From Pseudomonadota bacterium (GTDB lineage: Bacteria > Pseudomonadota > Alphaproteobacteria > Rhodospirillales > Rhodospirillaceae), in NCBI GenBank assembly GCA_020160875.1, contig JAIUPE010000008.1, forward strand, positions 1 through 54,559: a stretch of 54,559 bases of DNA. The letters are read 5' to 3'. Made by a program: the position numbers and the translations under genes. The stretch's first letter is position 1; the number at the start of each line of letters is the position of its first letter. Of this stretch, positions 1,421-32,833 are shown piece after piece. Below the pieces are notes generated by a model that ran no database searches, was not told the DNA's origin, and saw only the letters and a list, made by a program, of their open reading frames with translations.

Positions 1421-3444
1421 TCGAACCTCAACGCGGTGACGGGGTCCATTCGTGAGGCCTTGAGCGCGGGGTAGAGCCCGAAGCCCACGCCGACGAGGCC
1501 GCTGAAGCCGGTCGCGAGCGCCACGATGTCGGCGCGTACCAGCAGCGGCCAGCCGAACTGCACCGAGAGCTGCTGCGCCGCGAAGAGCCCGAGGCCCACG
1601 CCGACGAGCCCACCGACGATGGCCAGCACCAGCGCCTCGACGAGGAACTGCGCGAGGATTTGGCCCGGCGTCGCGCCGACGGCCATGCGAATGCCAATCT
1701 CCCTCGTTCGTTCGGTCACGCTCACCAGCATGATGTTCATGACGCCAATTCCGCCGACCAGCAGCGAGATGGCCGCGATGGAGCCGAGCAGGATGGTGAG
1801 GGTGTTCGACGTCGCCGTCGCGGTTTCCAGGATCGAGACCATGTTGCGGATCTGGAAGTCTTCCTGCTTGTGGCGCGCGATCAGAAGCTGGCGCACGGCT
1901 TCTTGGGTGGCGTCGATCTTGTCGACGTCCTGCACCGCGACGGTCACGGTGCGGGCGTAACGCTGGCCGTAGATGCGCTGTGCGCCCGTGGTGATCGGCG
2001 TGAACACCATGTCATCCATGTCCTGGCCGAAGTTGTTGGCGCCCTTGGCCGCCATCACGCCGATGACCTGGAAGGGGTTGTTGCCGATCAGGATGTATTG
2101 GCCGAGCGGATCTTCACCGTTCGTGAACAGGGCCTTCACGACGGTCTGGCCGAGGACCACGACCGGGGCGTAATTGTTGACGTCCTGGTCGCTGAAGAAG
2201 GTGCCCTCCGACGTCGCCCAATCGCGCACCGTCGTATACGGCGCGGTCGTTCCGTTGACCTGTGTTTGCGCGTCGTTCTTGCCATAACGCACCGTGGCGT
2301 TGCTCGGGAACTCCGGCACCGCTTGGTCGACGTTGGGCAATTCCGAAATGGCTTCGGCGTCCGCGGGCACGAGCGACGCGCGCGAGCCGCCGGAAAAACG
2401 CTGATTGGGCGCGCCTGGGCGGACGAGCAAAAGATCCGTTCCCATGGCGGAGATACTGTTCAGCACCTGTTGTTTTGCGCCGTTGCCGATGGCGAGCAAG
2501 GCCACGACGGACGCCACGCCGATGATGATGCCCAGCAGCGTCAGCATGGTGCGTAGCCAGTTGGCGCGCAGCGAACGCACGGCCATCTTGCCCGCCTCGA
2601 CAAGGTCAGGAACGGTGGCGAAGGAGGATACAGGCTCGAAGCCCTGAGGTTGGATCGGACGTTCCGAAGCCGGTGGCACGGGGCCGGAGTCCGACGTGAT
2701 CAATCCATCTTTGATCTCGATCACGCGTTTGGCCTGCTGGGCCACAGCCGCATCGTGGGTGATGATCAGCACGGTGTGGCCGGCGGCGTTCAGGTCTTTG
2801 AGGATCTGCATCACGTCGGTGCCGCTCTTGCTGTCCAGGGCGCCGGTCGGTTCGTCGGCAAGGATCACCGCGCCGCCGTTCATCAGAGCTCTGGCAACGG
2901 ATACGCGCTGCTGCTGCCCGCCGGAAAGCTGACTCGGGCGATGATCCATGCGCTCGCCGAGGCCGAGTTGAGTCAAAAGCTGTTCGGCGCGCGCCACCCG
3001 GTCGCTGTGCATCAGCCCGGCGTAGATCGCCGGCACTTCCACATTCTCGACCGCCGTCGCCGTGGCCAGCAGATTGTACTGCTGGAAGATGAAGCCGAAG
3101 GCGCTCCGGCGCAGGAGCGCGCGTTGATCGGCCTCGAGCTGCGAGACTTCTTCGCCCGCGAAGCGGTAGCTGCCCGACGTCGGCCGGTCGAGGCAGCCGA
3201 GCAGATTCATCAGCGTCGTTTTGCCCGAGCCGGACGAGCCCATGATCGCGACGAACTCGCCCGGATAGATGTTGAGCGATACGCCGTGCAGGACCTGCAC
3301 CGATAATTCGCCGTTGTTGTAGGTTTTGGTGATGTCCTTCAGCGCGATCAGAGGCTGCGTGTCGGCATTGGAGGCCTGCCCGCGCCACTGAAGATCGGTC
3401 GCAGAACCTTTCGCCGCCGATGAGGTGCTGCTGAGCTTGTTCAT
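1417..3444 (-). CDS. macB: MacB-type ABC exporter (ATPase fused to FtsX-like permease)
   Basis: A 675-residue inner-membrane transporter that with MacA and TolC expels macrolides, peptides or lipids. The N-terminal ~30 residues are a non-conserved extension. The ATPase domain (about 33-255) has Walker A GSSGSGKT, signature LSGGQQQRVSVARAL, Walker B VILADEPTGALD and an H-loop TH. A first membrane helix (about 295-318, LLGIIIGVASVVALLAIG) precedes a large periplasmic MacB_PCD domain, and three C-terminal helices form the FtsX permease. The conserved stretch MNIMLVSVTERTREIGIRMA lies near 1680-1745. ATGA overlap with macA upstream and GTGA overlap with tolC downstream indicate one transcript. 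The 3' third of the gene differs in composition from the 5' part (almost no GATC below ~1830), so the gene may be a recombinant or an assembly chimera. Confidence 0.92.
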   Translation of the reverse strand: MNKLSSTSSAAKGSATDLQWRGQASNADTQPLIALKDITKTYNNGELSVQVLHGVSLNIYPGEFVAIMGSSGSGKTTLMNLLGCLDRPTSGSYRFAGEEVSQLEADQRALLRRSAFGFIFQQYNLLATATAVENVEVPAIYAGLMHSDRVARAEQLLTQLGLGERMDHRPSQLSGGQQQRVSVARALMNGGAVILADEPTGALDSKSGTDVMQILKDLNAAGHTVLIITHDAAVAQQAKRVIEIKDGLITSDSGPVPPASERPIQPQGFEPVSSFATVPDLVEAGKMAVRSLRANWLRTMLTLLGIIIGVASVVALLAIGNGAKQQVLNSISAMGTDLLLVRPGAPNQRFSGGSRASLVPADAEAISELPNVDQAVPEFPSNATVRYGKNDAQTQVNGTTAPYTTVRDWATSEGTFFSDQDVNNYAPVVVLGQTVVKALFTNGEDPLGQYILIGNNPFQVIGVMAAKGANNFGQDMDDMVFTPITTGAQRIYGQRYARTVTVAVQDVDKIDATQEAVRQLLIARHKQEDFQIRNMVSILETATATSNTLTILLGSIAAISLLVGGIGVMNIMLVSVTERTREIGIRMAVGATPGQILAQFLVEALVLAIVGGLVGVGLGLFAAQQLSVQFGWPLLVRADIVALATGFSGLVGVGFGLYPALKASRMDPVTALRFE

Positions 3445-4829
3445 CTGAACCGCGGGCCGCCGCCAAAGCCGCCCGGGCCGCCGAGCAGGCCGCCGCCGGG
3501 ACGCTGTTGTTGTTGTCCGCCGCCCGCCGGAGCTTCCATCACCACAACGTCGCCGGGTTCGAGACCCGACTTCACTTCCGCGACGAGACGGTTCATGGCG
3601 CCGATGGTGATCTCCTTCTGCACACGTTCGCCGTCCTCAAGAACGGTGACGGTGTAATGCATACCGTCGCTGGCCGTGCCGCCACGCGGCCCGGGGCCGC
3701 CTTGGCCGCGCATGCGGCGGCGTTCGCCGGCCGCCGGCGCGCCGCCTGCGTCAGGCGTTCCATGCGCCGCCACGTCGGCGCCATTGGGAGAGGCCGGTTT
3801 GGCGGCGTCCGCGGGCGGCGCTTGGCGCGGCTGACGCGCGGCGGGGCGCAGGGCGGATACCGACACGATCGGTACGTTATGCGCTTCCGAAACCACGAAA
3901 TAGACCTGCGCGCTCATTTGCGGCAGGAGATCTTTTTCCGGGTTCTCGACGTCGAACAGACAATTGTAGAGCACGACGTTGTTCACCACTTCCGGCGTGG
4001 GTACGATTTGACGCAGCGTGCCGTAGCGGCGCTTGTCCGAGACGCCGAGGGTCGTGAAGTAGGCGCGCATGCCGATCTTCAGCTTCGGCACGTCGGCTTC
4101 CGACACCTGGGCGTACACGGTCATCGTATCCAGGTCGGCGATGCGCAGGATCAGGGGCGCGGTTTGGTTCGCGTTCAGGGTCTGGCCCTGCTTCGCGATC
4201 AGGTTCACGACCTGTCCGGCCATCGGCGCGAAAATCTTGGTGTACGACAGGTTGGCGGTATCGCCCTTCAGCGTGGACTCGGTCTGTCTGATTTGGGCTT
4301 GCAAAGCGGCGATCTGCGCGGTGGTCACCTTAAGGCGGGAGTCGGCGCTGTCGAAGGCATCCTGGCTGGTGGCGTTGGCGGCCAGCAAATCCTTCTGTCG
4401 CTCGAACTGCTGTTGGGCGAGCAGGCGTTCCGCCTGGCGCTGGGTCAACTGCGCCTGGAAATTCTGCAGCGAGGCTTCCGTCGCGCCCTTGCGCGATTCG
4501 TAAATCGTCGGATCGATCTCGGCCAGGAGTTGGCCCTGTGTGACGGTCTCGCCGTAATCCACGTTGATCTTGCGGAGCTGTCCCGAGACCTGCGTGCCGA
4601 CGTCGACGAACTGCAATGGCTGCAGCGTGCCCATGGCGGTCACGGTATCCTCCACGTCGCCCATCATGACTTCTTGCGTGATGAACGCATCCTGCGGCGT
4701 GGTCCGGCCCTTGAAGAACCAGACACCGCCGCCGATGAAGGCGGCCGCCAGGACTGCGACGGACACCATCCCCCGGCGCGAGCGCACGAAGGAGGTGATT
4801 TTGGGAGAGGAGAGCTTGGGAGCGGGCAT
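3441..4829 (-). CDS. macA: MacA-type periplasmic adaptor (HlyD/RND-MFP family)
   Basis: A 462-residue membrane fusion protein linking MacB to TolC. The start MPAPKLSS at 4829 is preferred over an upstream in-frame start because the extra 51 residues are unlike the family and cover the divergent promoter region. Residues about 19-37 form one inner-membrane anchor helix (MVSVAVLAAAFIGGGVWFF). It is followed by barrel-sandwich half VDVGTQVSGQL, a coiled-coil hairpin rich in Gln/Ala (LTQRQAERLLAQQQFERQK), the second lipoyl half IFAPMAGQVVNL, and beta-barrel and membrane-proximal domains. A Pro/Ala-rich linker (about 355-400) and a Gly-rich C-terminal tail are unusual additions. Its TGA overlaps the macB ATG. 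First gene of the macA-macB-tolC operon. Confidence 0.9.
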   Translation of the reverse strand: MPAPKLSSPKITSFVRSRRGMVSVAVLAAAFIGGGVWFFKGRTTPQDAFITQEVMMGDVEDTVTAMGTLQPLQFVDVGTQVSGQLRKINVDYGETVTQGQLLAEIDPTIYESRKGATEASLQNFQAQLTQRQAERLLAQQQFERQKDLLAANATSQDAFDSADSRLKVTTAQIAALQAQIRQTESTLKGDTANLSYTKIFAPMAGQVVNLIAKQGQTLNANQTAPLILRIADLDTMTVYAQVSEADVPKLKIGMRAYFTTLGVSDKRRYGTLRQIVPTPEVVNNVVLYNCLFDVENPEKDLLPQMSAQVYFVVSEAHNVPIVSVSALRPAARQPRQAPPADAAKPASPNGADVAAHGTPDAGGAPAAGERRRMRGQGGPGPRGGTASDGMHYTVTVLEDGERVQKEITIGAMNRLVAEVKSGLEPGDVVVMEAPAGGGQQQQRPGGGLLGGPGGFGGGPRFR

Positions 4830-4937
4830 AGGATTGATCAGAAGCCTCGAGAATACAGGCCCAATATAGACCCCGAATTTATGGCATTCATCCGTGGAAA
4901 CGGTGACTGTATTGTAATCCGTCGATATTTTATTTCT

Positions 4938-4953
4938 GGCCGAAGGATCGGCC
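4938..4953 (+). promoter_or_regulatory. Small hairpin carrying the Shine-Dalgarno in its loop
   Basis: GGCCGA-AGGA-TCGGCC forms a perfect six-base-pair stem with a four-base loop. The loop AGGA is the only good ribosome-binding sequence for the gene starting at 4958, with ten bases between it and the ATG. Such a stem could limit ribosome access. The structure is read directly; a regulatory role is inference. Confidence 0.35.
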
Positions 4954-4957
4954 GTCC

Positions 4958-5740
4958 ATGAACGTTCAACTATCCCCCTCACCGCAGAAAGAACGCGCGG
5001 CTTTACGGTTCCGGACCGGGGTCTATGTGACCCTGGGCGGCGGCGCCGTTGCCGCGATCGCCACGGCCGTCGCCTCCCTTTCGCCGTTCACCGAAGGCTT
5101 CGTGATCGGGGCCCTCATTCCTTATCTGATCGTCGGCTTGGTGGTCGTCGCCAAAATCGCCGCCTATCACCCGTACGAGACATTTGGCGTCGCCAATGCG
5201 CTCACGCTCACGCGTCTCGTGATCACCGCGCTTCTGGGCGGTCTTGCGTACGAAGTGACGCTGCATGGATTGAAGCCCATTCCGTGGATCGCCTGGAGTT
5301 TCTGCGCCATGGCGGTCGGCGCTATCGTCGTCGACGGTCTCGATGGCTACAGCGCGCGGCGCCAAAACCTTGCGTCTGATTTCGGGGGCCGCTTCGACAT
5401 GGAAGTGGACGCCTTGCAGATCCTGCTCCTGTGCGTGGTCGCGGTTGCTTTGGAGAAGGCGGGCGCCTGGATTCTCATCGGCGGCGCGTTGCGCTACGCC
5501 TACGAAATCGCCGCGGTGTTTTGGTCGGCCCTGAAACGGCCCTTGCCGCCCTCGTTCCGTCGCAAGTTGATCTCGGTCGTCATGGGCAGCACGCTCGCCG
5601 CTCTGCTGGCGCCCGTGATCACGCTGCCCTTCAGCACGATCCTTGCCGCGGTGGCGCTGGCGCTTCTCATTTATTCTTTCGCGGTCGATGTGATCTGGCT
5701 GGCCGTCGACGACGCACGGGCACGGCGGGCCGCAGGATGA
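4958..5740 (+). CDS. CDP-alcohol phosphatidyltransferase family membrane enzyme
   Basis: A 260-residue integral membrane enzyme predicted to transfer a phosphatidyl (or other phosphoalcohol) group from a CDP-activated donor. The family signature D-G-x2-A-R-x8-G-x3-D-x3-D is complete: DGYSAR at about residues 128-133, then G, D and D in GGRFDMEVD. About six hydrophobic helices surround it. The N-terminus carries an extra pair of hydrophobic segments (VTLGGGAVAAIATAVASL and FVIGALIPYLIVGLVVV) before the catalytic domain, so it is longer than PgsA. Its stop overlaps the next gene (ATGA), implying coupled translation with the LtaS-like enzyme. The alcohol acceptor is unknown; a ribityl or glycosyl compound made by the neighbouring cluster is a speculative possibility. 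Confidence 0.85.
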   Translation: MNVQLSPSPQKERAALRFRTGVYVTLGGGAVAAIATAVASLSPFTEGFVIGALIPYLIVGLVVVAKIAAYHPYETFGVANALTLTRLVITALLGGLAYEVTLHGLKPIPWIAWSFCAMAVGAIVVDGLDGYSARRQNLASDFGGRFDMEVDALQILLLCVVAVALEKAGAWILIGGALRYAYEIAAVFWSALKRPLPPSFRRKLISVVMGSTLAALLAPVITLPFSTILAAVALALLIYSFAVDVIWLAVDDARARRAAG

Positions 5741-7314
5741 AACGCATTTTTTCCGAGAAGCAGAACACCCCCCGCGTGATCGCGACGCTGCTCGCGCTCC
5801 TTCTGCTGCATGCGGTTCTCTTGCTGCCGACCTATCCCGAAAATATCGTTCCGCGGGCCTTCGCTTATATTCCCATCGAGCTTCCCGTGCTGATCCTTCT
5901 GTGCGCGCTGCCGTTTGGGAGGTTAGGGTTCGTGTTGCGCGCCCTGATCGCGTTCGCGCTCACCGTTTTCGCCGTGATCAAGTTTGCGAATATCGCCACT
6001 TTTCTCGGCTTCAATCGCGCCTTCAACCCCGTCGTCGATCCTTCGTTGATCCCGATCGCCATTGAAACCCTCGGCATGACGAGTACGGGGCTCGTGGTCG
6101 CCGCCGTCGCCGGGACCGTGATCCTGGTCGGCGCGCTCATCGCGTTGTTCTTCTGGTCGACCCGCGTCTTCGCGCGCCCCGCGATGCTGGTTTTAGGGGG
6201 GATTCTGTTGGCGACGGCGGTGGGCCTGAAGTTCACGCCCTGGCGTGACTACAGCACAACGGATGCCAGCGTCTTCGCGCGCGACCAGATCGCCAATGTC
6301 GGTCTCAGTCTCGCCGCCGCCGAACAATTCAAACGCGATGTCGCCGCCGATCCTTTTCGCGATATCCCCGGCGAACGACTGCTGACTCGTCTCAAGGGCA
6401 ACGACGTGCTTCTGATTTTCGTGGAAGCTTACGGCCGCACGGCATTTGATCTCGAAGCGCCCGTGCGTCAGCTCCGGAACTCCGAAGCCGCGCTGCGCGC
6501 CGCCGGCTACGCCATGCGCAGTAGTTGGTTGGTCTCGCCGACCTTCGGCGGCGCAAGCTGGCTCGCGCACAGCACCTTTGTCACGGGCCTCGCGATCGCG
6601 GATCACCAGCGCTACAACACGCTCTTTGTCAGCGGCTACAAGACGCTCATTCACGATTTCGCGCGGGCCGGCTGGCGCACGTCGGCGGTGATGCCGCTGT
6701 TCACGCGTCCCTGGCCCGAAGGCGGTTTCTTCGGCTTCGATGCCGTCTACACGGCGAACAACCTGGGCTACGCGGGGCCGCCCTTCGGCTACATCACCAT
6801 GCCGGACCAGTATGTTTTGTCCGCGTTCCAGAAGCGCGAGCTCGACGTGCCCGGCCGCAAGCCGGTGATGGTGGAGATGGCGCTGAACTCGAGCCATCTG
6901 CCTTGGACGCCGCGCCCGAACTTCCTACCGTGGGACAGCGTCGGCGATGGCGCGGTTTTCGCGACCGAGCGCGAGGGCGAGGATGTCGACATGGACTGGC
7001 TCGCCCCGCAGAAGATGCGAAACCAGTATGAGTTGGCCGTTACCTACGCCATCAAGACCGTGTTTTCTTTCGCCGAGACGCAGGTGAAGGCGCCGGCGCT
7101 CATTATCATTCTGGGCGATCACCAGCCCGTCTCACTGGTGTCCGGCACGGGCGCCAGTCACGATGTGCCGGTCCATATCCTCGCGCGCGATCCGGCGCTC
7201 CTGGACTCCTTCACGGGCTGGACCGACGGTCTCGTGCCGGACGCGCAAAGTCCGGTCTGGAAAATGGAGGCGATGCGAGGGCATATTCTCAAGGCCTTCA
7301 GCGCCGAACCTTAA
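5737..7314 (+). CDS. LtaS/sulfatase-like membrane phosphotransferase
   Basis: A 525-residue protein with five hydrophobic helices in the first ~180 residues, then an alkaline-phosphatase-superfamily (sulfatase fold) domain outside the membrane. Visible metal and active-site regions are NDVLLIFVEAYGRTAFD (the first metal-binding Glu), SPTFGGASWLAHSTF (nucleophile region), SSHLPW and the C-terminal LIIILGDHQPVS, equivalent to the GDH of LtaS. The start is the ATG overlapping the previous stop; a much longer open frame upstream runs through the previous gene and is not used. LtaS and OpgB relatives move phosphoglycerol from phosphatidylglycerol to glycans. Together with the CDP-alcohol transferase this suggests phospholipid head-group or phosphodiester transfer at the envelope. 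Substrate unknown. Confidence 0.8.
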   Translation: MKRIFSEKQNTPRVIATLLALLLLHAVLLLPTYPENIVPRAFAYIPIELPVLILLCALPFGRLGFVLRALIAFALTVFAVIKFANIATFLGFNRAFNPVVDPSLIPIAIETLGMTSTGLVVAAVAGTVILVGALIALFFWSTRVFARPAMLVLGGILLATAVGLKFTPWRDYSTTDASVFARDQIANVGLSLAAAEQFKRDVAADPFRDIPGERLLTRLKGNDVLLIFVEAYGRTAFDLEAPVRQLRNSEAALRAAGYAMRSSWLVSPTFGGASWLAHSTFVTGLAIADHQRYNTLFVSGYKTLIHDFARAGWRTSAVMPLFTRPWPEGGFFGFDAVYTANNLGYAGPPFGYITMPDQYVLSAFQKRELDVPGRKPVMVEMALNSSHLPWTPRPNFLPWDSVGDGAVFATEREGEDVDMDWLAPQKMRNQYELAVTYAIKTVFSFAETQVKAPALIIILGDHQPVSLVSGTGASHDVPVHILARDPALLDSFTGWTDGLVPDAQSPVWKMEAMRGHILKAFSAEP

Positions 7315-7316
7315 AT

Positions 7317-8069
7317 ATGCTCACGCCCTACATCCATCTCACGCAGCCTGATCTGCCTCTGAAAGGCGCCGTCGCGATCATTCCGCTGGCGTCGATGGAA
7401 ACCCATGGTCCGCATCTCCCGCTTGGTACCGACGGCCTCATCGCCGAAGGAATTCTCGCGCAGGCCGCTGCGCGAATCGCCGCGCGCGCCGTATCGTTGC
7501 CCACCTTGTGGCTCGGCGCGTCGTCCGAGCATTGTTCTCATGCGGGCACGCTGAGTGCGGAGCCCGAACAGATGATCGGCGCCATCGTCGCGCTGGGCGA
7601 GGGGCTGGCGCGTGCCGGTATCGACCGCGTGGTTCTCTTCAACGGGCATGGCGGCAATATCGCGCTCGGCGCCATGGCCGCGCTCAAGCTGCGCACGCGG
7701 TTCGGGATGCTCGCCGCCTCCGCCCATTGGCTCGACTTCGGCCTGCCGGCGGGCCTGACGCCACCGGCCTCCGTAAATGCCGACGTTCACGGCGGATGGG
7801 TCGAAACGTCGGTGATGCTGCATCTCGCGCCGCATCTCGTGAAAAGGGAAAAGGCCAAGGCGAACGAAGCCAAGGTGCCGGCCGCCAGCCTCTTTCCGGC
7901 GGGCCCGGTCAATTGGGGCTGGAAAAGCGAAGACCTCGCCGCCGGCGGATGGGTCGGGCGCCCGGACCTCGCGCATGTCGATTTCGGCAAGGCGATGGTC
8001 GCCCATGCCGCGGCGGCGCTTGCGAGTCTGATCGACGAACTCGCGGCGGCGAAGTGGCCTATTTCCTAA
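7317..8069 (+). CDS. Creatininase-family amidohydrolase (ArfB/MftE-like)
   Basis: A 250-residue soluble metal-dependent amidohydrolase. The ligand motif E-x-H-G-x-H-L-P-L-x-T-D is intact (METHGPHLPLGTDG, residues about 23-36). So are the second His in VVLFNGHGGN (about 104-113) and the Glu in HGGWVETSVM. The family includes creatininase, the mycofactocin peptidase MftE and archaeal ArfB, which removes formyl from the product of GTP cyclohydrolase III in riboflavin synthesis. It starts two bases after the upstream stop, and its 3' end overlaps the convergent GTP cyclohydrolase II gene by 11 bases. That context favours a pyrimidine substrate over creatinine, but this is inference from gene order. 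Confidence 0.85.
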   Translation: MLTPYIHLTQPDLPLKGAVAIIPLASMETHGPHLPLGTDGLIAEGILAQAAARIAARAVSLPTLWLGASSEHCSHAGTLSAEPEQMIGAIVALGEGLARAGIDRVVLFNGHGGNIALGAMAALKLRTRFGMLAASAHWLDFGLPAGLTPPASVNADVHGGWVETSVMLHLAPHLVKREKAKANEAKVPAASLFPAGPVNWGWKSEDLAAGGWVGRPDLAHVDFGKAMVAHAAAALASLIDELAAAKWPIS

Positions 8070-9198
8070 GGCGCGCGATCTCGCCCAGAAGGTGACCCGC
8101 GCGGATCGCCTTGGTGCTTAAGTAATCCTGATTGTGCGGATTGACGTTGCCGATGAGGCGCTGATGCCCCACCACATTGACCCCGAAATCCTCCAGCGCG
8201 CTGATCTTTTCGGGATTGTTGGTCATCAACGTGATCTGGGTGAAACCCAATAGCGCCAGCATCGCGCCCGCGATGCCGTAACGGCGCTCGTCGGGTCCAT
8301 AACCCAGCACCGCGTCCGCATCGACCGTGTCGTGGCCCATTTCCTGAAGGCGATATGCGCGCATCTTGTTCAGAAGCCCGATGCCGCGCCCTTCCTGATC
8401 CAGATACAGAAGAACCCCACCGCCTTGAGCGGTGATCTCGTTCACCGCCATGCGCAGCTGATCGCCGCAGTCGCATTTCAGGCTGCCAAACAGATCCCCG
8501 GTCAGACACGCCGAGTGTAAGCGGGTGAGAGCCGGCTTTTTGGGATCGGGGTTGCCGATCACGATGGCGATTTGATCGCGTAAACCCTCACCGCCCCGGA
8601 ACACCACGAATTCGGCATCCTCGGCTTCGGACAGTGGCACGCGCGTGCGCTGGATGATGGAGACGTCGCGGGCCGCGCGATCGTGGAACGTATCCACGGC
8701 CGACGCATCGACCGTGATCATGTGGCCATAGTCTTCTGTCGCCGGCAGCACCACGGCCGCGGGTAAAAGATAAGCGCGCTTTACGAGTTCAAGCGCGCTT
8801 GCTTCGAGCCGCGTCGCGGCCTGATGGGCCAGCAGGGGGACATTGGGTTTGACGGCCATGAGCACATCGTCGATGTCGAAGGCCGTTAGGTCGGCGAGAT
8901 TCACATGCGCCGGACCGGGCATGATGATCCCAAGGTGGCGCAGACGCGGCGCCGGCAGGATCAACCCGATGGAGCCGGCGGGGGTCATGCCGGGCGTGGT
9001 GGCCCATTCCGCGATCCGTTCGCCGCCCAGCATATCGGCGGCGGCAACGACCAACGCCTCGCTGCCCGCCACGAGGCGTACGGGACGGCCCTCGCGCAGC
9101 TCATGCACCGCGCGCTGCACCGACAGGCGGCCGGCGTCGCCGAACCACCTTGCCAAGTCACCGTCTACGGTACCAATCTTTACGTCTTCGTTCGGCAC
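8059..9198 (-). CDS. ribA: GTP cyclohydrolase II (RibA family, long N-terminus)
   Basis: Opens GTP to 2,5-diamino-6-ribosylamino-pyrimidinone phosphate. The catalytic domain occupies the C-terminal ~200 of 379 residues. Zinc Cys residues are in ACLTGDLFGSLKCDCGDQL, the GTP-binding loop is YLDQEGRGIGLLNKMRAYRL, and the family motifs TNNP and a final DYLSTKA are present. The Tyr in KMRAY corresponds to E. coli RibA Tyr105, so the usual deformylated product is expected. The N-terminal ~175 residues are not a DHBP synthase and resemble the extension seen in other alphaproteobacterial RibA proteins. I chose GTG at 9198 because GTGAGG sits just upstream; a TTG at 9213 is possible. It is divergent from the reductase gene, with only 26 bases between starts. 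Whether this is the housekeeping enzyme or a cluster-specific paralogue cannot be told here. Confidence 0.9.
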   Translation of the reverse strand: MPNEDVKIGTVDGDLARWFGDAGRLSVQRAVHELREGRPVRLVAGSEALVVAAADMLGGERIAEWATTPGMTPAGSIGLILPAPRLRHLGIIMPGPAHVNLADLTAFDIDDVLMAVKPNVPLLAHQAATRLEASALELVKRAYLLPAAVVLPATEDYGHMITVDASAVDTFHDRAARDVSIIQRTRVPLSEAEDAEFVVFRGGEGLRDQIAIVIGNPDPKKPALTRLHSACLTGDLFGSLKCDCGDQLRMAVNEITAQGGGVLLYLDQEGRGIGLLNKMRAYRLQEMGHDTVDADAVLGYGPDERRYGIAGAMLALLGFTQITLMTNNPEKISALEDFGVNVVGHQRLIGNVNPHNQDYLSTKAIRAGHLLGEIARLRK

Positions 9199-9224
9199 TC
9201 TCGCCTCACGCAAAAGAAGAATTC

Positions 9225-10004
9225 ATGACAGGTATTGTGGACTGGGATAGGGACGCTCCGCAATGGCCGGTCCTGCTCGACATCGCCCACGGCCCTAACG
9301 CCGCCCATCGCGCCGCCGTTGGACCGGCGGAGGATATGCTTTGGCGGATCTATGGCCCGCTTGTCCGGCGTAACGCTTCCAGGGCTTCATTTGTTATCGG
9401 ACAAATGGGGCAATCTTTGGACGGCCGTATTGCAACCCAAACAGGCCATTCCCATTACATCAACGGTCCCGCCGCCATTCTGCATCTCCACCGCTTGCGG
9501 GCGTTGGCCGACGCGGTTGTGATCGGAGTCGGCACCGCGATCGCCGACGATCCTCAGCTCACCGTACGCCATGTGGATGGTCCGCAGCCCGCCCGTGTCG
9601 TGATCGACCCGAAAGGACGTCTGCCCGGTTACATGCGCTGCCTGCAACAAGATGGCGCACGGCGCATTGTGGTCGGCGACGGCGCGCCTTTGGCCGGTGT
9701 TGAACATGTACGGTTGAGATCCGGTCCCGAAGGTCTTGCGCCGTCCGCTATTATCGGCGCGCTAAACGATCTCGGCCTGAGGCGTATTCTCGTCGAAGGC
9801 GGCGGGCAGACCGTGTCGCGCTTTCTCGAAGCGGGGGCGCTCGATCGTCTGCATGTGATGGTGTCGTCCATGGTGATCGGCGCAGGCCCCGTCGGTCTCA
9901 GTTTTGGCGCGATCTCCGATCTCAAGGACGCGCTGCGCCCGACCGTCACCACCTACGCCATGGCGGGCGGCGACACGCTCTTCGATTGCGCGTTTGAAGG
10001 ATAG
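9225..10004 (+). CDS. Stand-alone RibD-type (ArfC/Rib7-like) pyrimidine reductase
   Basis: A 259-residue protein consisting of the RibD C-terminal reductase (dihydrofolate-reductase-like) domain preceded by ~55 non-conserved residues. Family motifs are FVIGQMGQSLDGRIA, ADAVVIGVGTAIADDPQLTVR, RVVIDPKGRLP and RRILVEGGGQTVSRFLE (NADPH and substrate contacts). The zinc deaminase domain (HAE and PCxxC) that precedes this domain in bacterial RibD is absent. A stand-alone reductase acting before deamination is the arrangement in fungi (Rib7) and archaea (ArfC). Predicted reaction: NADPH-dependent reduction of the ribosyl to a ribityl side chain on the diaminopyrimidine made by the divergent cyclohydrolase. 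The start ATG follows AAGAAG. Downstream, cytochrome b561 begins four bases after the stop. Confidence 0.87.
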   Translation: MTGIVDWDRDAPQWPVLLDIAHGPNAAHRAAVGPAEDMLWRIYGPLVRRNASRASFVIGQMGQSLDGRIATQTGHSHYINGPAAILHLHRLRALADAVVIGVGTAIADDPQLTVRHVDGPQPARVVIDPKGRLPGYMRCLQQDGARRIVVGDGAPLAGVEHVRLRSGPEGLAPSAIIGALNDLGLRRILVEGGGQTVSRFLEAGALDRLHVMVSSMVIGAGPVGLSFGAISDLKDALRPTVTTYAMAGGDTLFDCAFEG

Positions 10005-10008
10005 GTCG

Positions 10009-10539
10009 ATGCAGACGCAGACGCCCCGGTATACCGGCGCCGCCAAGCTCTTCCACTGGCTCACGGCGCTCTCGGTCATGACGGCGATTGTCCTCGGTTT
10101 CGCGATGGTCGACGCCAGTCCGGGGCCGGGACAGAACAAGCTTTACGACCTCCACCGTTCTTTCGGCGCGCTGATCCTTCTTCTTACGGGGCTGCGTTTG
10201 TTGTGGCGCCTGTATGCGCCGCCGCCCAAGGTGCCGGGCCTGCCGGCGTGGCAGGAGAAGGCGGCGCTATATCTGCACCGCCTGTTGTACGTCGTGCTTT
10301 TCGCGATGCCGCTCTTGGGCTGGGCCGGGACGTCCGCGTTCCCCGCCACGATCATGGTCTTCGGCCTGTTCGAACTGCCGCCTATCGTGGGACCCGACCG
10401 CGAACTCTCCAAGCTTCTGCTCGGCATTCACTGGCGGCTGGCCTTCGTGCTGTGCGCGATGATCCTTGGTCACATCGGCGCGGCACTCTATCACCACTTC
10501 ATCCTGAAGGATGAAACCTTGAAGCGGATGTTGCCCTGA
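10009..10539 (+). CDS. Cytochrome b561 family di-heme membrane protein
   Basis: A 176-residue protein with four membrane helices, expected to carry electrons between quinol and a periplasmic acceptor such as superoxide. Candidate heme ligands are in AAKLFHWLTAL, LYDLHRSFG, LYLHRLLY and GIHWRL, and the C-terminal helix ends LGHIGAALYHHF. The length is normal for YodB/CybB-type proteins. It starts four bases after the reductase stop, so the two are probably cotranscribed. It is convergent with the methyltransferase gene, the two stop codons being directly adjacent. A redox role in the cluster is possible, but these proteins also occur as lone genes. Confidence 0.85.
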   Translation: MQTQTPRYTGAAKLFHWLTALSVMTAIVLGFAMVDASPGPGQNKLYDLHRSFGALILLLTGLRLLWRLYAPPPKVPGLPAWQEKAALYLHRLLYVVLFAMPLLGWAGTSAFPATIMVFGLFELPPIVGPDRELSKLLLGIHWRLAFVLCAMILGHIGAALYHHFILKDETLKRMLP

Positions 10540-11385
10540 TTATCCCGCGCGCGGTTTCGCGAACACGTCGCGGTGGCCGATCGTCAGCAGCCGCGTATTG
10601 ATCACGCTGGCGCGCAACCATTGTTCGATATCTTCCGGCGGGATGGTCTGCATCTCCTGCACCGCCGCGGCGATCCCGGCCAGTGTCGCATATAAAAGCG
10701 CCGACGCGCCGCGATCGATCGCCCAGGGGCTTTCGCCCACTTCGATCTCATAGCCGGCGGTCTCGAGCGTCGCTTCAAGGACCTCCGCCGCGCGCGGGCC
10801 GGCGGCGGGGCCGAATCCTTTGTCGCGCTGCTGGTGTCCGCAAAACGCATCCGCCACCGCGCGGTCGAGGGGGTGTTCCGGCTCGGCGGCCATCGATCCG
10901 TCGAAGGTCAGCATGCTGAGCAGCGAAACCTTCTGCGCCGCAAGCCGTGCGACAAACGCATCGAGCCAGCGGGCCGAGGTCAGATCGAACAGCGCCGAGG
11001 CTGTCACGAGATCCGTGTCTTTCGGCCAGCAGGCCGGCGTCGCGGCGAGGTCGCACGCATGTGTGCGCACATAAAGCTGACGGTCGCCCTTTCGCAGCAT
11101 CAGGCCGCCGTCATAGGCTTTCACGTCGCTGCCCCAGCGCGCGAGTTGTTGGAACGCCGCCGACAGATTGTTCTCGTCGCTGTCGACCAGCGTCCAGAAC
11201 TGACGGCGGGGCAGCAGGTCCACCAGGGCGCGCACGGACGCTCCTGTCCCGGCGCCGATGTCGCAGACATTGATGCTGTCTTGATCCGCGAAGGCGCGTG
11301 CGCAAGCGTTCATGACGTGACGATTGCGCGCCGTGAGGTCGGCAGGTTCACGCAGGGCGAGCCATTCCGGCGAGAAGCCGCTCAT
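10540..11385 (-). CDS. Class I SAM-dependent methyltransferase
   Basis: A 281-residue cytosolic protein with a Rossmann methyltransferase core. Motif I is NVCDIGAGTGASVRAL (about residues 41-56), the acidic end of strand 2 is FWTLVDSDENNL, and the motif IV region is DLVTASALFDLTSARWLDAFV. The C-terminal third has no feature I recognise. The start ATG overlaps the glycosyltransferase stop (ATGA). It is last in the minus-strand run dehydrogenase, PTPS-like protein, glycosyltransferase, methyltransferase, so it probably modifies the product of that run. Substrate unknown. A much longer frame upstream of the chosen start runs through the glycosyltransferase gene and is discarded. Confidence 0.82.
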   Translation of the reverse strand: MSGFSPEWLALREPADLTARNRHVMNACARAFADQDSINVCDIGAGTGASVRALVDLLPRRQFWTLVDSDENNLSAAFQQLARWGSDVKAYDGGLMLRKGDRQLYVRTHACDLAATPACWPKDTDLVTASALFDLTSARWLDAFVARLAAQKVSLLSMLTFDGSMAAEPEHPLDRAVADAFCGHQQRDKGFGPAAGPRAAEVLEATLETAGYEIEVGESPWAIDRGASALLYATLAGIAAAVQEMQTIPPEDIEQWLRASVINTRLLTIGHRDVFAKPRAG

Positions 11386-12437
11386 GCCGCCGCCTCCAAG
11401 GTCAGATTCAGCGCGCCCGCCACGGCGCGGGCCGTATCGCTCCACTGCGGCAGCGCCTGTCCGTGACGCCAGGCCGCGTCCGCCAGGCTCACGCGAAGCG
11501 TGCTGTCCGTCAGCATCCGCCGCAGGGTATCGGCAAAAGCGCGCACGTCGTCCGGCGGCGTCAGGACGCCGGCGTCTCCCGGGACCGTGTCGATCACCGC
11601 GCCGGCGGCGCATGCGGCGATGGGCAGGCCGTGCGCCAGGGCTTCGGCGAACACCATGCCGTAGCCCTCATAGCGCGAGGCGAGGGCGAAGATGTCGGCG
11701 CGGCCGTAGATCTCGCGCAGCGCGCCGCCGCTCATCTCGCCGGCCAACGTGACGCGCCGTTCCAGATTGTGATGTTCGATGAGTTTGCGCAGGAGCGCCG
11801 TTGTCGCGAGATCGCGCTCCTTACTCCCGACGATTTGGCTTTTCCACGGAAGGTCCGCGACCTCCGCCAGCGCCGCGATCAGCACGTCGTGACCCTTGCG
11901 CGGTGTCAACGTGCCGACGGTCAGAATGAGCGGGACGTCACCGCCACCGCGCGCGCGGTGCGCACGTTCGGTTCCCGGTAGCGCGACGTGGATTTTCTCT
12001 CGTGGGACGCTGAACTCTTGCACGAGGGTTTGCGCGGTCACCGGGCTCGTGACCACCACGCGCCGCGCAAGGGTCAGCGCGGCCCGTTCGGTCTTTTCGA
12101 AATGCGCCGCATCGTCGGCGGCGATGCCGCTTTCACGGGCCAGCGGATGATGCACCAGGGCGGCAATGCGCACATGCAATCCATCGATCACGGAAGTAGG
12201 CAGCGCGCCGTAGGCAAGTCCGTCGATCAGAACGGTCGCGCGCGGCGGCAAGGCCTCCAGACTCGCGCGGACGCTCTGAAGGTCCTCTGCGCCGGGGTGC
12301 GGAAATGTCCCCGGCCAGGAGAGCAGCCGCGGCGTCCAACCGGCCGCCGGCAGCGCCTCCATCAGCCGGCGCGCGTAGACATATCCACCCGTGAGGGTCT
12401 CTGGGTCGCCGGGTATGGCGAACCAGACCTCAGGCAT
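11382..12437 (-). CDS. Family 4 (GT-B) glycosyltransferase
   Basis: A 351-residue retaining glycosyltransferase. The N-terminal acceptor domain begins MPEVWFAIPGDPETLTGGY, with the glycine loop near the start. The donor domain carries PLILTVGTLTPRKGHDVLI and the E-x7-E element in SRYEGYGMVFAEALAHGLP, which binds the nucleotide-sugar phosphates. No membrane segment. The start ATG at 12437 overlaps the PTPS-like gene by eight bases; an upstream in-frame ATG (15 residues longer) is less likely. It overlaps the methyltransferase by ATGA. Tight coupling on both sides indicates a shared pathway, perhaps attaching a sugar to the pyrimidine or pterin product; donor and acceptor are unknown. Confidence 0.87.
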   Translation of the reverse strand: MPEVWFAIPGDPETLTGGYVYARRLMEALPAAGWTPRLLSWPGTFPHPGAEDLQSVRASLEALPPRATVLIDGLAYGALPTSVIDGLHVRIAALVHHPLARESGIAADDAAHFEKTERAALTLARRVVVTSPVTAQTLVQEFSVPREKIHVALPGTERAHRARGGGDVPLILTVGTLTPRKGHDVLIAALAEVADLPWKSQIVGSKERDLATTALLRKLIEHHNLERRVTLAGEMSGGALREIYGRADIFALASRYEGYGMVFAEALAHGLPIAACAAGAVIDTVPGDAGVLTPPDDVRAFADTLRRMLTDSTLRVSLADAAWRHGQALPQWSDTARAVAGALNLTLEAAA

Positions 12438-12837
12438 GAACGAGATCTGCTTCGAATCCCGCGCGCGCCGCGTGGGATTCATGCAGCATGATCTTCAGGC
12501 GCTTCAGCCCCGACGCCGACGGGCCGAGACGCCCGGCGTTGATGGCTTCCTGCACGCGCAGGAACACCCAGCGGGCGACCGCTTCCGTCGTCGAACGGCG
12601 GCCTTTGAAATCCGGATGTTCGTCCAGGTTGTTGAAATTGATCGACGACAGGATCTGTTTCACCGTGTCCGTCGCGAGGCCTATGTCCACGACGATGTCG
12701 TACTCGTCCAGTTCTTCGCGCATGAAGCAGACGTCGATCACATAAGTCGCGCCGTGCAGTTTTTGGGCCGGTCCAAACACTTCACCGGGAATGCTATGAG
12801 CGATCATGACGTGATCGCGGACTTCAACGGAGTACAT
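12430..12837 (-). CDS. 6-pyruvoyltetrahydropterin synthase/QueD homologue lacking canonical active-site residues
   Basis: A 135-residue T-fold protein clearly of the PTPS/QueD family: an N-terminal beta strand and His (IAHS), the KLHGA box, an acidic VVDIG strand, STTEAVARWVF and a final HESHAARAGF. Against E. coli QueD from memory, His14 and His28 match two zinc ligands, but the third (HGH) is Ala30. The catalytic Cys is Ala24, and the Asp-His pair is Asn67-Phe68. The Glu in HES is retained. So it should not perform the standard dihydroneopterin triphosphate reaction. It lies between the dehydrogenase (ten bases upstream) and the glycosyltransferase (8-base overlap). I remember similar proteins in other alphaproteobacteria and actinobacteria annotated as carboxytetrahydropterin synthase; their reaction is not known to me. 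Confidence 0.82.
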   Translation of the reverse strand: MYSVEVRDHVMIAHSIPGEVFGPAQKLHGATYVIDVCFMREELDEYDIVVDIGLATDTVKQILSSINFNNLDEHPDFKGRRSTTEAVARWVFLRVQEAINAGRLGPSASGLKRLKIMLHESHAARAGFEADLVHA

Positions 12838-12847
12838 GGTTTTTCCT

Positions 12848-13810
12848 TTAGTAACGCAGCACGGTCATGAGGCCTGAGCTATCACCGCTCAGGACGGCGG
12901 GCAATCGCTTTGGCGCTTCATCGAACGGGATTTCGCCGGTGATGAGCGCGTCGAACTTCTCGTCCTGCAGCAAGTCCAGCGCGCGGGCCATCCGCGCGGC
13001 GTGGGTCACGCTGCCGCGGTGACTGGGCGCGACGCTGCCGACCTGCGAGGAGATAATCTGTAAGCGCTGCGCGTGAAAGGCGGCGCCGAGCGGGAGTGTC
13101 ACGGTGCGCTCGCCGTACCAGCTTGCCTCCACGATTTTCGCCTCGAAAGCGGCGCATTCCAGGGCGCGCAGCAAGCCGTCCTCGGTCGCGCTGGTGTGAA
13201 TCACCACATCCTGGTCCGTCGGGGCCGCTGCCGGCGGCGCGAAGTTCGCGCCCATCTTTTGCGCCGCGCCCGCCCGCGATGCCAGCACGTCGACGACCGT
13301 GACCTGGGTGTTCGGCACCGACGATGCGACGGCCGCGGTCAGCAAGCCCAGCACGCCGCCGCCGATGATCAGCACCTTCTGTCCGGGTGCGAGTTGGGCG
13401 TCCCACGTCACATTCAGCGCTGTTTCCATGTTGGCCGCCAGGCAGGCGCGTTTGGGCGGCAGGCCCTTGGGCAGAGGACGGACGAACGAGAGCGGTACGC
13501 GCGCGGTGCGTTGGTGGGGATGGAGCACGAACGCGTGCTCGCCCTTGAGGTGCGCCGGACCATCCAGGACCCGTCCGACCAGGGCGTAGCCGTATTTGAC
13601 GGGGAAGGGGAAGTTGCCTTCCTGCAACGGGCAGCGCATGCGCGCGTGTTCGCTGCGCGGCACGCGGCCTTGCAGCACCAGGGTTTCGGTCCCGCGGCTG
13701 ATCCCAGAGTAAAGCGCTTCAAGGGTCACGTCGCCCGCGCCCGGAAGCTCCACGGTCCGGTGTTCGGCCTGGCCGGGGGCTGTGTACCAAAGGGCTTCGC
13801 TATGAGACAT
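12848..13810 (-). CDS. MDR-family dehydrogenase without catalytic zinc ligands
   Basis: A 320-residue medium-chain dehydrogenase/reductase. The N-terminal GroES-like domain shows YSGISRGTETLVLQG, where classical alcohol dehydrogenases have the zinc Cys. Ser replaces it, as in BchC-type enzymes. The Rossmann domain carries QKVLIIGGGVLGLLTAAVA and TVVDV, whose acidic residue suggests NAD(H). It is shorter than zinc ADHs (~350), consistent with loss of the structural zinc lobe. Start ATG at 13810 with CAGGAG about ten bases upstream. It is the first gene of the minus-strand run leading into the PTPS-like, glycosyltransferase and methyltransferase genes, so the promoter for all four probably lies in 13811-13976. 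Probably oxidises or reduces a side chain of the cluster product. Confidence 0.83.
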   Translation of the reverse strand: MSHSEALWYTAPGQAEHRTVELPGAGDVTLEALYSGISRGTETLVLQGRVPRSEHARMRCPLQEGNFPFPVKYGYALVGRVLDGPAHLKGEHAFVLHPHQRTARVPLSFVRPLPKGLPPKRACLAANMETALNVTWDAQLAPGQKVLIIGGGVLGLLTAAVASSVPNTQVTVVDVLASRAGAAQKMGANFAPPAAAPTDQDVVIHTSATEDGLLRALECAAFEAKIVEASWYGERTVTLPLGAAFHAQRLQIISSQVGSVAPSHRGSVTHAARMARALDLLQDEKFDALITGEIPFDEAPKRLPAVLSGDSSGLMTVLRY

Positions 13811-13976
13811 GTCGGGAATTGCTCCTGAAGGGCCCCGAAGCTAAGGGTTCAAGCGCGCAAGTAACAGGTGTAAAAAAAATCGAAGGTTCACCGGGCCATT
13901 GCTGGCTCCCGAGCGTTCTGTCACAAAAATCCACAAGAGCTATCCAGCCCACCCCCGGGCTTTTACCTTTTCGCTG

Positions 13977-15827
13977 ATGATCCTGACGAAGAAGCTAACG
14001 CGATCGCTTTGGGCGGTCCTCCTTGTGACGGCGATGCCGTCGGCGCCGGTCGTTGCGGCCGACGAGTCCGTCGCCGAAGTCGCGCCGGCCGAAGGTCCGA
14101 TCGCGTACACTATCAAAATCGAGGGCGCGCCGGGCGGCCGGGTCAAAGACCTGTTGGAGGAATCCTCTCAGCTCATTCGCCTGCGCAATAGCCCGTCCAT
14201 GACCTTCGCCGCGCTCGGGCAGCGCATCGCGCGCGATGAACAGCGTTTTCGCGCTGCGCTTGAATCGGAGGGCTACTACGCCGCCACGGTCGTCACGTCG
14301 ACGTCGGATGAAAAGGGCCGCGTGGCCGTCATCGTCACGGTCGATCCCGGCCCGCGGTATACGGTGACCTCCGTCGTTTTTGATCTGGCGCGCGAGGAAC
14401 CGGCGACCGTCGCGCTCATCAAGCCCGAGGACTACGAAACGCCGCTCAAGGGGATCGTCGGCCGTCCGGCGCGCGCGGCCGACGTGATTCTTGCCGAGGA
14501 TATGGCGCTCGATCTCTTGCGCGCGGAAGGGTTCCCCTTTGCCCGGCGCGGCGATCGGCAACTCGATGTAGACCACACGACGCATACCATCGCGGTGAAT
14601 TTGCCGGTGGAGCTCGGACACCAGGCCCTCTTCGGCGCGACGCATTTCTCGGGCCTCGAAAGCGTGAACGAATCGCACCTCCAGCGCCTGGTGCCCTGGC
14701 CCGCCGGCGATATCTTTAGTCTCAAGACGCTCGATGCGTTTCGCGAAGATTTGATTTTAGCCTCTCTTTTTACCTCCGTGCGCGTTGAGCCCGCTGCCGC
14801 GAGCGTGCCGGAAAATGGCGCGCCGCTTGACGTGAATGTCATCGTCGCGGAAGGGCCCCATCGTTCTGTCGGGACGGGGGTGACCTATGCGCGCGACAAA
14901 GGCATCGGTGGCTCGGCCTATTGGCGCCACCGCAACCTGTTCGGCAATGGCGAGCGCTTCGAAGCCAATCTCGACGGCAACAAGCTCGACCAGACCGCCG
15001 AACTCTCGCTTGCCAAGCCCGGCTTTCTCTCCCGGCGCAACACGTTGAAGCTCGGGGCGACGGGGCATCACGAAGACACCGACGCGTTCACCGAATACAG
15101 CGGCACGCTCAGCGGTGCGGTCGAACACAAACTGAACGATCTCTGGCGCATCGCCGGCGGCACGACCTTCGAGTTCGCCGCGCTCACGGAAGATGGCGTT
15201 CAGCGCAACTCATATCTCGCCGGACTGCCCATGGGCGTCTCGCGCGCGGTGGACGAGCGCCTCGCCGTGGTCGAAATGACGCGCGGCTGGCGCCTGCGCG
15301 CCAACGTGACGCCCTACATCGGGCGCTACACCGGCACCACGACCTTCGCTCACCTTGAAACCGAAGTGGACGGCTACTGGCCCGCACTCGGCGGCAACCG
15401 GCTCGTCCTTGCGGGCCGCGTCAAGCTCGGCAGCCTGCTCGGCGAAGGCACGGACGACATTCCGGCCAACAAACGTTTCTACGCGGGCGGCGGCGGATCC
15501 ATCCGCGGTTTCGGCTATCAGCTCGTCGGGCCGCTCAACGCCGACAATGCGCCCATGGGCGGGCGCGGCTTGATCGAAACCAGCGCCGAGGCGCGCATCC
15601 GCATCACCGACACCGTCGGCATCGTGCCGTTTGTCGACGCGGGCATGGTCTCGCGCGGCGGTCTGCCGGGGGGTGACGGCGATATCCGTGTCGGCGCCGG
15701 CATCGGCGCGCGCTACTACACGGGTGCGGGTCCCTTGCGCGTCGACTTCGCGATGCCGCTCAATCGGCGCGGCGGCGGTGTCGACAAGTCGTGGCAGTTC
15801 TACGTCAGCTTCGGGCAGGCCTTCTAG
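13977..15827 (+). CDS. tamA: TamA-type outer-membrane assembly factor (Omp85 family)
   Basis: A 616-residue Omp85 protein that with TamB inserts or transports envelope components. The chosen start MILTKKLTRS gives a clean signal peptide (about residues 1-27, ending PVVAAD); an upstream in-frame start adds 26 unlikely residues. Three POTRA-like domains occupy about 40-290 (first strand AYTIKIEGAPGGRVKDLLE). The C-terminal ~320 residues form a 16-stranded barrel with the family loop motif FYAGGGGSIRGFGYQ (the G-R-G-F type motif VRGF/IRGF) and VPFVDAGMV, ending in YVSFGQAF with a terminal Phe as expected for Bam recognition. tamB follows 100 bases downstream, separated by a palindromic repeat. 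Confidence 0.92.
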   Translation: MILTKKLTRSLWAVLLVTAMPSAPVVAADESVAEVAPAEGPIAYTIKIEGAPGGRVKDLLEESSQLIRLRNSPSMTFAALGQRIARDEQRFRAALESEGYYAATVVTSTSDEKGRVAVIVTVDPGPRYTVTSVVFDLAREEPATVALIKPEDYETPLKGIVGRPARAADVILAEDMALDLLRAEGFPFARRGDRQLDVDHTTHTIAVNLPVELGHQALFGATHFSGLESVNESHLQRLVPWPAGDIFSLKTLDAFREDLILASLFTSVRVEPAAASVPENGAPLDVNVIVAEGPHRSVGTGVTYARDKGIGGSAYWRHRNLFGNGERFEANLDGNKLDQTAELSLAKPGFLSRRNTLKLGATGHHEDTDAFTEYSGTLSGAVEHKLNDLWRIAGGTTFEFAALTEDGVQRNSYLAGLPMGVSRAVDERLAVVEMTRGWRLRANVTPYIGRYTGTTTFAHLETEVDGYWPALGGNRLVLAGRVKLGSLLGEGTDDIPANKRFYAGGGGSIRGFGYQLVGPLNADNAPMGGRGLIETSAEARIRITDTVGIVPFVDAGMVSRGGLPGGDGDIRVGAGIGARYYTGAGPLRVDFAMPLNRRGGGVDKSWQFYVSFGQAF

Positions 15828-15875
15828 CGCATGAACCGGAACAAGGGACGCCGATTTTCCGACAGGGGCATGCGC
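15827..15875. repeat. Intergenic palindrome, family A, copy 1
   Basis: An inverted repeat starting at the last base of the tamA stop: outer arms GCGCATG/CATGCGC and inner arms CGGAA/TTCCG. It shares the order outer stem, CCGGAA, spacer, TTTTCCGA, outer stem with the copies at 29295 and 40823. It sits between tamA and tamB and may stabilise or attenuate the message. Confidence 0.65.
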
Positions 15876-15928
15876 CGGAATAAAAGGGCGGCAACCGCCA
15901 TGAGCATGGCTGATCTGGTCGCACGCCG

Positions 15929-32772: not shown

Positions 32773-32797
32773 CTGACAAATGTCAGGCGGCTGTCAG
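32773..32797. promoter_or_regulatory. Probable response-regulator operator (TGACA-TGTCA palindrome plus direct repeat)
   Basis: CTGACAAATGTCAG (32773-32786) is an inverted repeat, and TGTCAG recurs at 32792-32797, exactly 11 bases after the first TGTCAG. One-turn-spaced direct repeats are typical for OmpR-family regulators, and the TGACA..TGTCA core resembles the CusR/CopR box as I remember it. It sits between the divergent regulator and efflux operons, upstream of a TATAAA. Confidence 0.6.
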
Positions 32798-32808
32798 GAA
32801 TCTCCGGC

Positions 32809-32814: not shown

Positions 32815-32833
32815 GCCGCCGAAGGGGTACACC

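Follow-up and report, generated by a model that had tools for sequence, protein, structure and literature searches.

The stretch analysed here, called the window below, comprises the 54,559 nucleotides of contig JAIUPE010000008.1 (assembly GCA_020160875.1) from an alphaproteobacterium of the Rhodospirillaceae. At positions 4958-13810 it carries a block of genes for which an earlier note, made from the sequence alone, had proposed a dedicated pathway starting from GTP cyclohydrolase II (GCH II). The block does consist of ten genes as described there, with four small overlaps (5737-5740, 4 bases; 8059-8069, 11; 11382-11385, 4; 12430-12482, 53) and three strand switches (4958-8069 on the + strand, 8059-9213 on the - strand, 9225-10539 on the + strand and 10540-13810 on the - strand). 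Because of the three strand changes, the block is not one operon. Pfam and NCBIfam profiles confirmed the gene families assigned earlier from sequence:

4958-5740, + strand: CDP-alcohol phosphatidyltransferase (CDPPT; PF01066, 54.3 bits)
5737-7314, + strand: SULF, N-terminal helices and an alkaline-phosphatase-type domain, similar to membrane phospho-alcohol transferases (Sulfatase, 24.2 bits; fold model)
7317-8069, + strand: creatininase-family amidohydrolase (CREA), candidate formamide hydrolase (PF02633, 203.4 bits)
8059-9213, - strand: GCH II (RIBA) with a degenerate RibB-like N-terminal half (PF00925, 176.1 bits)
9225-10004, + strand: stand-alone RibD_C reductase (RIBD) without a deaminase domain (PF01872, 122.6 bits)
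10009-10539, + strand: cytochrome b561 (PF01292, 114.8 bits)
10540-11385, - strand: class I S-adenosylmethionine-dependent methyltransferase (MTASE; model with a mean predicted local distance difference test score, pLDDT, of 97.2)
11382-12482, - strand: GT4 glycosyltransferase (PF00534, 98 bits)
12430-12837, - strand: PTPS-IV (FGPAQ) T-fold protein (PF01242, 73.3 bits)
12848-13810, - strand: medium-chain dehydrogenase (MDR), BchC-like, without the first zinc motif (TIGR01202 BchC, 55.2 bits)

We compared 122 loci: the window, 35 loci from genomes, six from plasmids and 80 from genome contigs. The last are the best 80 of at least 589 stretches, and the counts describe relatives near the query. 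Gene frequencies refer to the 96 loci, window included, that have full context (at least 8 kb on each side). The loci were picked by PTPS, whose own count (96 of 96) is uninformative; GT4, MTASE, CDPPT and RIBA were counted with cleaned profiles, and SULF with the initial profile set, which had absorbed fused open reading frames. Fisher tests assume independent loci, and these loci are related.

The four-gene core MDR-PTPS-GT4-MTASE is complete in 88 of the 96 loci (MDR in 95, GT4 in 93, MTASE in 91). Over all 122 loci, same-strand adjacency was found for MDR-PTPS in 115, PTPS-GT4 in 116 and GT4-MTASE in 108. Genes of the pyrimidine type (RIBD 76, RIBA 45, CREA 32) and membrane or redox genes (CDPPT 53, b561 28, MdoH-like 28, SULF 22, flippase-like 14, YceI 8) accompany the core. 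The neighbour set is conserved in alpha-, beta- and gammaproteobacteria, in actinobacteria and in one contig labelled Acidobacteria, with hosts that include Methylosinus trichosporium OB3b, Neorhizobium, Streptomyces fungicidicus, Microbacterium, Thiodictyon, Vreelandella titanicae, Variovorax paradoxus, Xanthobacter autotrophicus and Amycolatopsis rubida. Chance alone would by no means produce so frequent a recurrence of this arrangement among the loci sampled, and the gene-neighbourhood check proposed in the earlier note finds the set, and above all its core, in several phyla.

PTPS relatives were detected in 36 of 289 genomes of the class and 27 of 398 of the phylum, in 20 plasmid records and in at least 589 genome-contig stretches. 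Their spread is patchy: PTPS is missing from the one other member of the source family and from the five members listed for the order. Viral contigs yielded no PTPS or creatininase relative by the patterns searched. Two contigs from lake metagenome-assembled genomes labelled Candidatus Marinimicrobia (L079 and L081) have the gene order closest to that of the window, with PTPS proteins 77-78% identical; a wrong label or a transfer may lie behind this.

The FGPAQ signature is present in the window PTPS and in 119 of 122 relatives. The nearest solved relative is SCO6650 of Streptomyces coelicolor (structure 3d7j, E 7.2e-41), which is reported to bind no zinc, to have no PTPS activity and to possess a pterin-like pocket. 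Two of the three zinc histidines are kept in all 122 proteins and the third is Ala in all of them (HGAT); the HGH zinc motif preceded by Cys or Glu, as in PTPS-I, II and III, was found in none of the 122. Positions 22, 24 and 25 are Gly, Ala (one Gly) and Gln (two Arg) throughout the set. The position of the catalytic Asp, judged against the QueD of the same genome, holds Asn in the window and Asp in seven of 122 relatives, and the catalytic His is absent, being Phe in the window and Tyr, Phe, Leu or Met in all 122. E85 and E120 are invariant in 122 of 122 and, by the structures of the family, are presumably the glutamates that grip the 2-amino-4-oxo edge of the ring.

These residues bear on an explanation in which the substrate of PTPS-IV is a pterin from GTP cyclohydrolase I (folE), with the pyrimidine genes serving only to tune GTP or flavin pools. 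Most PTPS relatives do use folE products, according to the relevant passages of a 2016 review; however, the zinc triad is incomplete in all 122 proteins, the catalytic His is missing, and no folE occurs among the annotated regions or the named neighbour families, no folE profile having been run over the loci. We consider this explanation very unlikely. The same passages cite unpublished work in which PTPS-IV serves archaeal F420 synthesis; nothing found here supports that role, and no test was aimed at it.

The reductase lacks the deaminase domain, as the earlier note had observed: the deaminase motif is absent from the window protein and from all 92 cluster reductases (0/92), and it was found in the RibD encoded elsewhere in the genome, used as a positive control. 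No relative of the deaminase half was detected across the 122 loci, and relatives of RibB, RibE and RibH are absent from 121 of them; the sole exception, L063, has a rib operon about 9 kb away. The best solved relative (6p8c, E 3.4e-25) is annotated as a 2,5-diamino-6-ribosylamino-4(3H)-pyrimidinone 5'-phosphate reductase, and against the ArfC model TIGR01508 the protein reached 94.2 bits, below the cut-off of 186.45. Because the loci contain neither the deaminase motif nor a relative of the deaminase half, the 2-amino group of guanine is likely retained along the pathway. With no deaminase on the reductase and with the two PTPS glutamates presumably gripping the 2-amino-4-oxo edge, the route would preserve just the side of the ring that the T-fold is shaped to hold. 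The diaminopyrimidine product suggested in the earlier note gains support by this reasoning, as a form that retains the 2-amino group.

GCH II occurs without a linked reductase at one of 45 loci only. Six genomes whose clusters lack the reductase were followed; a cluster-type copy was found elsewhere in two, weaker relatives only in three and no match in one. Two genomes of about 1.4-1.6 Mb (G161 and G259, loci L072 and L075) retain the cluster with GCH II, creatininase and reductase, and in G161 (96% complete) the cluster reductase is the one RibD_C match.

In the cluster GCH II, all twelve active-site positions that we checked are those of the Escherichia coli enzyme, including the three zinc cysteines, the Arg/Glu residues and the equivalent of Tyr105, whose presence the earlier note had reported correctly. 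The N-terminal half matches the RibB profile (hhalign E 4.3e-11) and misses the DDENREN acidic loop. The source genome (219 contigs, 3.76 Mb, 90.87% complete) has a separate rib operon on contig 121, with the order glyA, nrdR, ribD, ribE, ribBA and ribH (glyA, nrdR, ribE and ribH being named from a reading of the translations); the search for a complete rib set elsewhere, also advised in the earlier note, thus recovered a ribD-ribE-ribBA-ribH operon. The GCH II half of the RibBA on contig 121 (L159:4336-5469) has lost its zinc cysteines, and a second intact GCH II, with a RibB-like half that lacks the acidic loop, lies on contig 1 (L160:7266-8510). Judging from these residues, the RibB and GCH II functions of the genome seem to be split between two worn fusions on contigs 121 and 1. 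Because the rib operon and the other intact GCH II sit on other contigs, the block is not the riboflavin gene set of this genome.

In a quick tree of 61 GCH II domains, covering 39 of the 54 cluster-linked rows, the window protein grouped with cluster proteins (32 cluster rows and one unlinked row; 89 in the Shimodaira-Hasegawa-like approximate likelihood ratio test), and the contig 1 copy was placed among other non-cluster proteins. The GCH II proteins of L040, L061, L084 and L139 fell outside both groups. With cluster and RibBA copies counted in, at least two GCH II matches are present in 31 of 36 cluster-bearing genomes and at least two RibD_C matches in 33 of 36; G161 and G096 have a single RibD_C match and G064 (68% complete) none.

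GCH II, creatininase and reductase might alternatively constitute an extra supply of riboflavin, for example for secreted flavins, along the lines proposed for two riboflavin modules of Sinorhizobium meliloti, where the creatininase-family formamidase BrbF is required for riboflavin according to the relevant parts of PMC9478397. The single RibD_C match of G161 would fit this explanation, and so would the housekeeping-type GCH II beside three clusters. It is nevertheless a poor match to the whole rib operon elsewhere in the source genome, to the 121 of 122 loci without adjacent deaminase, RibB, RibE or RibH relatives, and to an MDR-PTPS-GT4-MTASE core that is more frequent than the riboflavin-like genes, and we regard it as quite unlikely. 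With a separate rib operon, another intact GCH II and neighbours that are conserved together, the idea of a dedicated pathway stands better than the author of the earlier note could know.

The creatininase-family protein keeps E28, H30, D39, H111 and E163, which are identical in 36 of 36 cluster relatives. The statement in the earlier note that all metal ligands are present holds for these five residues but not for the position of the Glu in the creatininase NGHYEN motif (Glu122, which we take to be a metal ligand), where the window and all 36 cluster relatives have Gly. None of three models reached its cut-off with this protein: the ArfB equivalog NF033501 (29.6 bits, cut-off 180), MftE TIGR03964 (115.5 bits, cut-off 172) and creatininase TIGR04448 (78.1 bits, cut-off 235). 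The 3.76 Mb source genome encodes eight creatininase-family proteins; a profile of the cluster type gave 317.8 bits for the window protein and 33.0-63.5 bits for the other seven. The creatininase occurs without a linked reductase at one of 32 loci (L040), and its presence tracks that of GCH II (Fisher p 2.4e-5, with the loci treated as independent although they are related).

BrbF of S. meliloti, a member of the same family, acts on the formylated GCH product according to the relevant parts of the 2022 JBC paper (PMC9478397). Compared by description, BrbF has MarR and CobW gene neighbours and a riboflavin role, whereas the window creatininase adjoins SULF and GCH II. Deformylation is favoured because of the family precedents BrbF and ArfB, and we put the chance that the cluster creatininase deformylates the GCH II product at about even. 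The creatininase might instead act late in the same pathway and cut an amide or lactam bond in an intermediate formed further on. The Tyr105 equivalent in 26 of 28 creatininase-positive GCH II rows, the six of 32 creatininase loci without a linked GCH II and the ArfB score far under its cut-off point in that direction. The same-family precedents for deformylating such intermediates, the co-occurrence with GCH II and the pairing of a creatininase with a Met-type GCH II at L040 point away from it, and on balance we hold late action possible, if somewhat doubtful.

From the Tyr105 equivalent, the earlier note had concluded that formyl release is probably already complete and that the creatininase may act on another amide, which would make a deformylase superfluous. 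That conclusion is weak, the Tyr being kept with or without a creatininase (50 of 54 cluster GCH II rows; 26 of 28 with and 24 of 26 without), and Tyr105 was likewise rejected as a marker of the creatininase. In a Streptomyces cluster (L040), Met occupies the Tyr105 position and a creatininase lies alongside; with its GCH II short and filtered out, L040 becomes a seventh creatininase locus without GCH II under a stricter filter. SCO6655, the GCH II of S. coelicolor, reportedly halts at the formylated product owing to Met120, whereas the window protein has Tyr at this place and, in addition, the RibB-like N-terminal half. Two residues after EGR, Ile is replaced by Asn, Thr or Ser in 15 of 26 creatininase-less GCH II rows and in none of the 28 creatininase-positive ones. 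As the 12 of these 15 rows that are in the tree form one group (96, starred), the replacement may be a single evolutionary event.

The other core enzymes gave broader assignments. The MDR scored 55.2 bits against BchC TIGR01202, below the cut-off of 291.25; among 119 relatives, 111 carry SRGTE and not one has a zinc motif of the GxCGSD kind. Sequence searches of PDB with GT4 and MDR returned broad families only, the GT4 matching Tll1590 (E 6.3e-24) and D-inositol-3-phosphate glycosyltransferase (E 4.2e-11). The cyanobacterial UDP-glucose:tetrahydrobiopterin glucosyltransferase (5ze7), also a GT4 enzyme, is a weak match (E 9e-5), and other GT4 enzymes match better. A fold search with MTASE found 711 folds at E <= 0.001, many of them class I methyltransferases, and as a means of naming the substrate it failed, with generic methyltransferases only. 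GT4 and MTASE are fused in one open reading frame of 641-670 residues in 13 of 122 loci, ten of them in Halomonas, Vreelandella or Halovibrio (L099, L100, L114, L116, L122, L127, L137, L138, L147 and L152) and three in Marinobacter (L101, L135 and L158).

Among the membrane genes, the complete motif DGx2ARx8Gx3Dx3D characterises 63 of the 65 CDPPT-type relatives. SULF lies just under the Pfam Sulfatase cut-off (24.2 against 25 bits), and its AlphaFold2 model (mean pLDDT 88.5) has MCR-1, EptA, LtaP/LtaS and GacH as nearest folds (E 4e-9 and weaker, template modelling score about 0.4 by query). EptA/MCR-1, LtaS and GacH transfer a phospholipid head group. E230, S274, D461 and H462 of SULF, identical in 17 of 17 aligned rows, are presumably the metal and nucleophile residues. 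Of the 22 SULF loci 21 also have CDPPT, as do all 14 loci with the flippase-like gene, and SULF (22 loci) and MdoH-like genes (28) never co-occur (p 2.8e-4, loci treated as independent). Because SULF and flippase-like genes go with CDPPT and because MdoH-like and SULF genes are mutually exclusive, the pattern suggests that the membrane genes are interchangeable means of completing a single product at the membrane or of exporting it there. A YceI-domain protein is encoded near the core in 11 loci (for example L148:7398-8090); co-occurrence of b561 and YceI was not above expectation (p = 1).

From the observed gene content, recurrence and missing domains and motifs, we infer a biosynthetic pathway separate from that of riboflavin, in which GTP would be converted through a ribityl-diaminopyrimidine to a glycosylated and methylated small molecule of the envelope. 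We propose it tentatively, its probability being in our estimate a little short of even. GCH II would open GTP and release a 2-amino-4-oxo-pyrimidine ribosyl 5'-phosphate that may or may not carry the formyl group; in clusters that encode it, the creatininase-family protein would take this group off, as with BrbF and ArfB, and the deaminase-less RibD_C enzyme would reduce the ribosyl to a ribityl group, leaving the 2-amino group untouched. The MDR without zinc motif may then turn a hydroxyl of the side chain into a ketone. The T-fold protein PTPS-IV, with the pocket for the 2-amino-4-oxo edge but not the PTPS/QueD catalysis retained, could bind the product and guide reactions of the ring, such as closure to a pterin-like system. 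GT4 would add a sugar and MTASE a methyl group, and CDPPT with SULF or the flippase-like protein, or else the MdoH-like transferase, would bring the product to or across the inner membrane. A tie of this product to a phospholipid, raised as a possibility in the earlier note, is conjectural.

Several observations weigh against this pathway. GCH II is linked at 45 of the 96 loci only and the reductase, within about 10 kb, at 76 only, six of the 32 loci with a creatininase lack a neighbouring GCH II, and the cluster-linked GCH II proteins of L051, L053 and L066 group with the housekeeping type in the tree. The membrane genes vary, 23 of 96 loci having no CDPPT, SULF, MdoH-like or flippase-like gene. 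Two Streptomyces plasmids (L196 and L197) carry PTPS-IV with no annotated cluster partner, in gene tables that are incomplete; there, PTPS-IV lies near genes for BTAD regulators, sigma factors, cupin and MBL-fold proteins.

The loci that bear the core without the reductase (20 of 96) or without GCH II (51 of 96) would suit two modules that travel together without a common product, one for the GTP-derived pyrimidine (GCH II, creatininase, reductase) and one for a glycolipid (MDR, PTPS, GT4, MTASE, CDPPT, SULF). We find this unlikely: the modules stay joined in many arrangements and across phyla, an unlinked cluster-type reductase was found in two genomes, and the PTPS pocket, given the presumed roles of its residues, matches the side of the ring that would survive a route without a deaminase.

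A more specific form of the proposed pathway would be a route to the pterin ring free of GTP cyclohydrolase I. GCH II would open GTP, RibD_C reduce the ribosyl group, MDR re-oxidise C2' and PTPS-IV close the ring through the 5-amino group, the reduction and oxidation standing in for the Amadori step of GTP cyclohydrolase I. The product, a glycosylated, methylated and lipid-displayed redox carrier at the outer face of the inner membrane, could be used by cytochrome b561 and YceI-type partners. We give this form little probability.

The cluster has been partly noticed before. AGeNNT (2017, PMC5445326) describes a PTPS-IV (FGPAQ) subfamily of COG0720 with PF00925 and RibD_C (PF01872) neighbours and 561 sequences in its network, and the window has both the signature and this neighbourhood. 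That paper labels PF00925 as GTP cyclohydrolase I/FolE2, whereas the window protein is GCH II by sequence. Its relevant passages mention no creatininase, GT4, methyltransferase, phosphatidyltransferase or pathway; the term CDP does not occur in it, nor PF02633 in its main text. The word undescribed, used in the earlier note, is therefore too strong for the published PTPS-IV/PF00925/RibD_C neighbourhood and for PTPS-IV itself, given the SCO6650 structure. Our literature search, with subscription papers mostly outside its coverage, found no publication that treats the cluster as a whole or its product. The creatininase-family enzyme and the stand-alone reductase resemble the archaeal ArfA-ArfB-ArfC start; unlike that start, the cluster has GCH II in place of GTP cyclohydrolase III, misses the ArfB and ArfC cut-offs and has no later riboflavin genes adjoining. 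The cluster is a variant of GTP-derived, cofactor-type metabolism.

By their translations, the genes directly before the cluster (128-4982) encode an outer-membrane efflux protein, a MacB-like ABC permease and a MacA-like adaptor, and those directly after it (13899-19855) a TamA-like and TamB-like pair. Further along the window, an RND efflux adaptor and an AcrB-type pump are encoded at 32780-36997.

The cluster presents an orphan pathway with clear first steps, whose genes are currently annotated as riboflavin or queuosine enzymes. Identification of the product would assign a role to the PTPS-IV subfamily, the protein of the SCO6650 structure and numerous second GCH II genes, and might add a new envelope molecule or cofactor.

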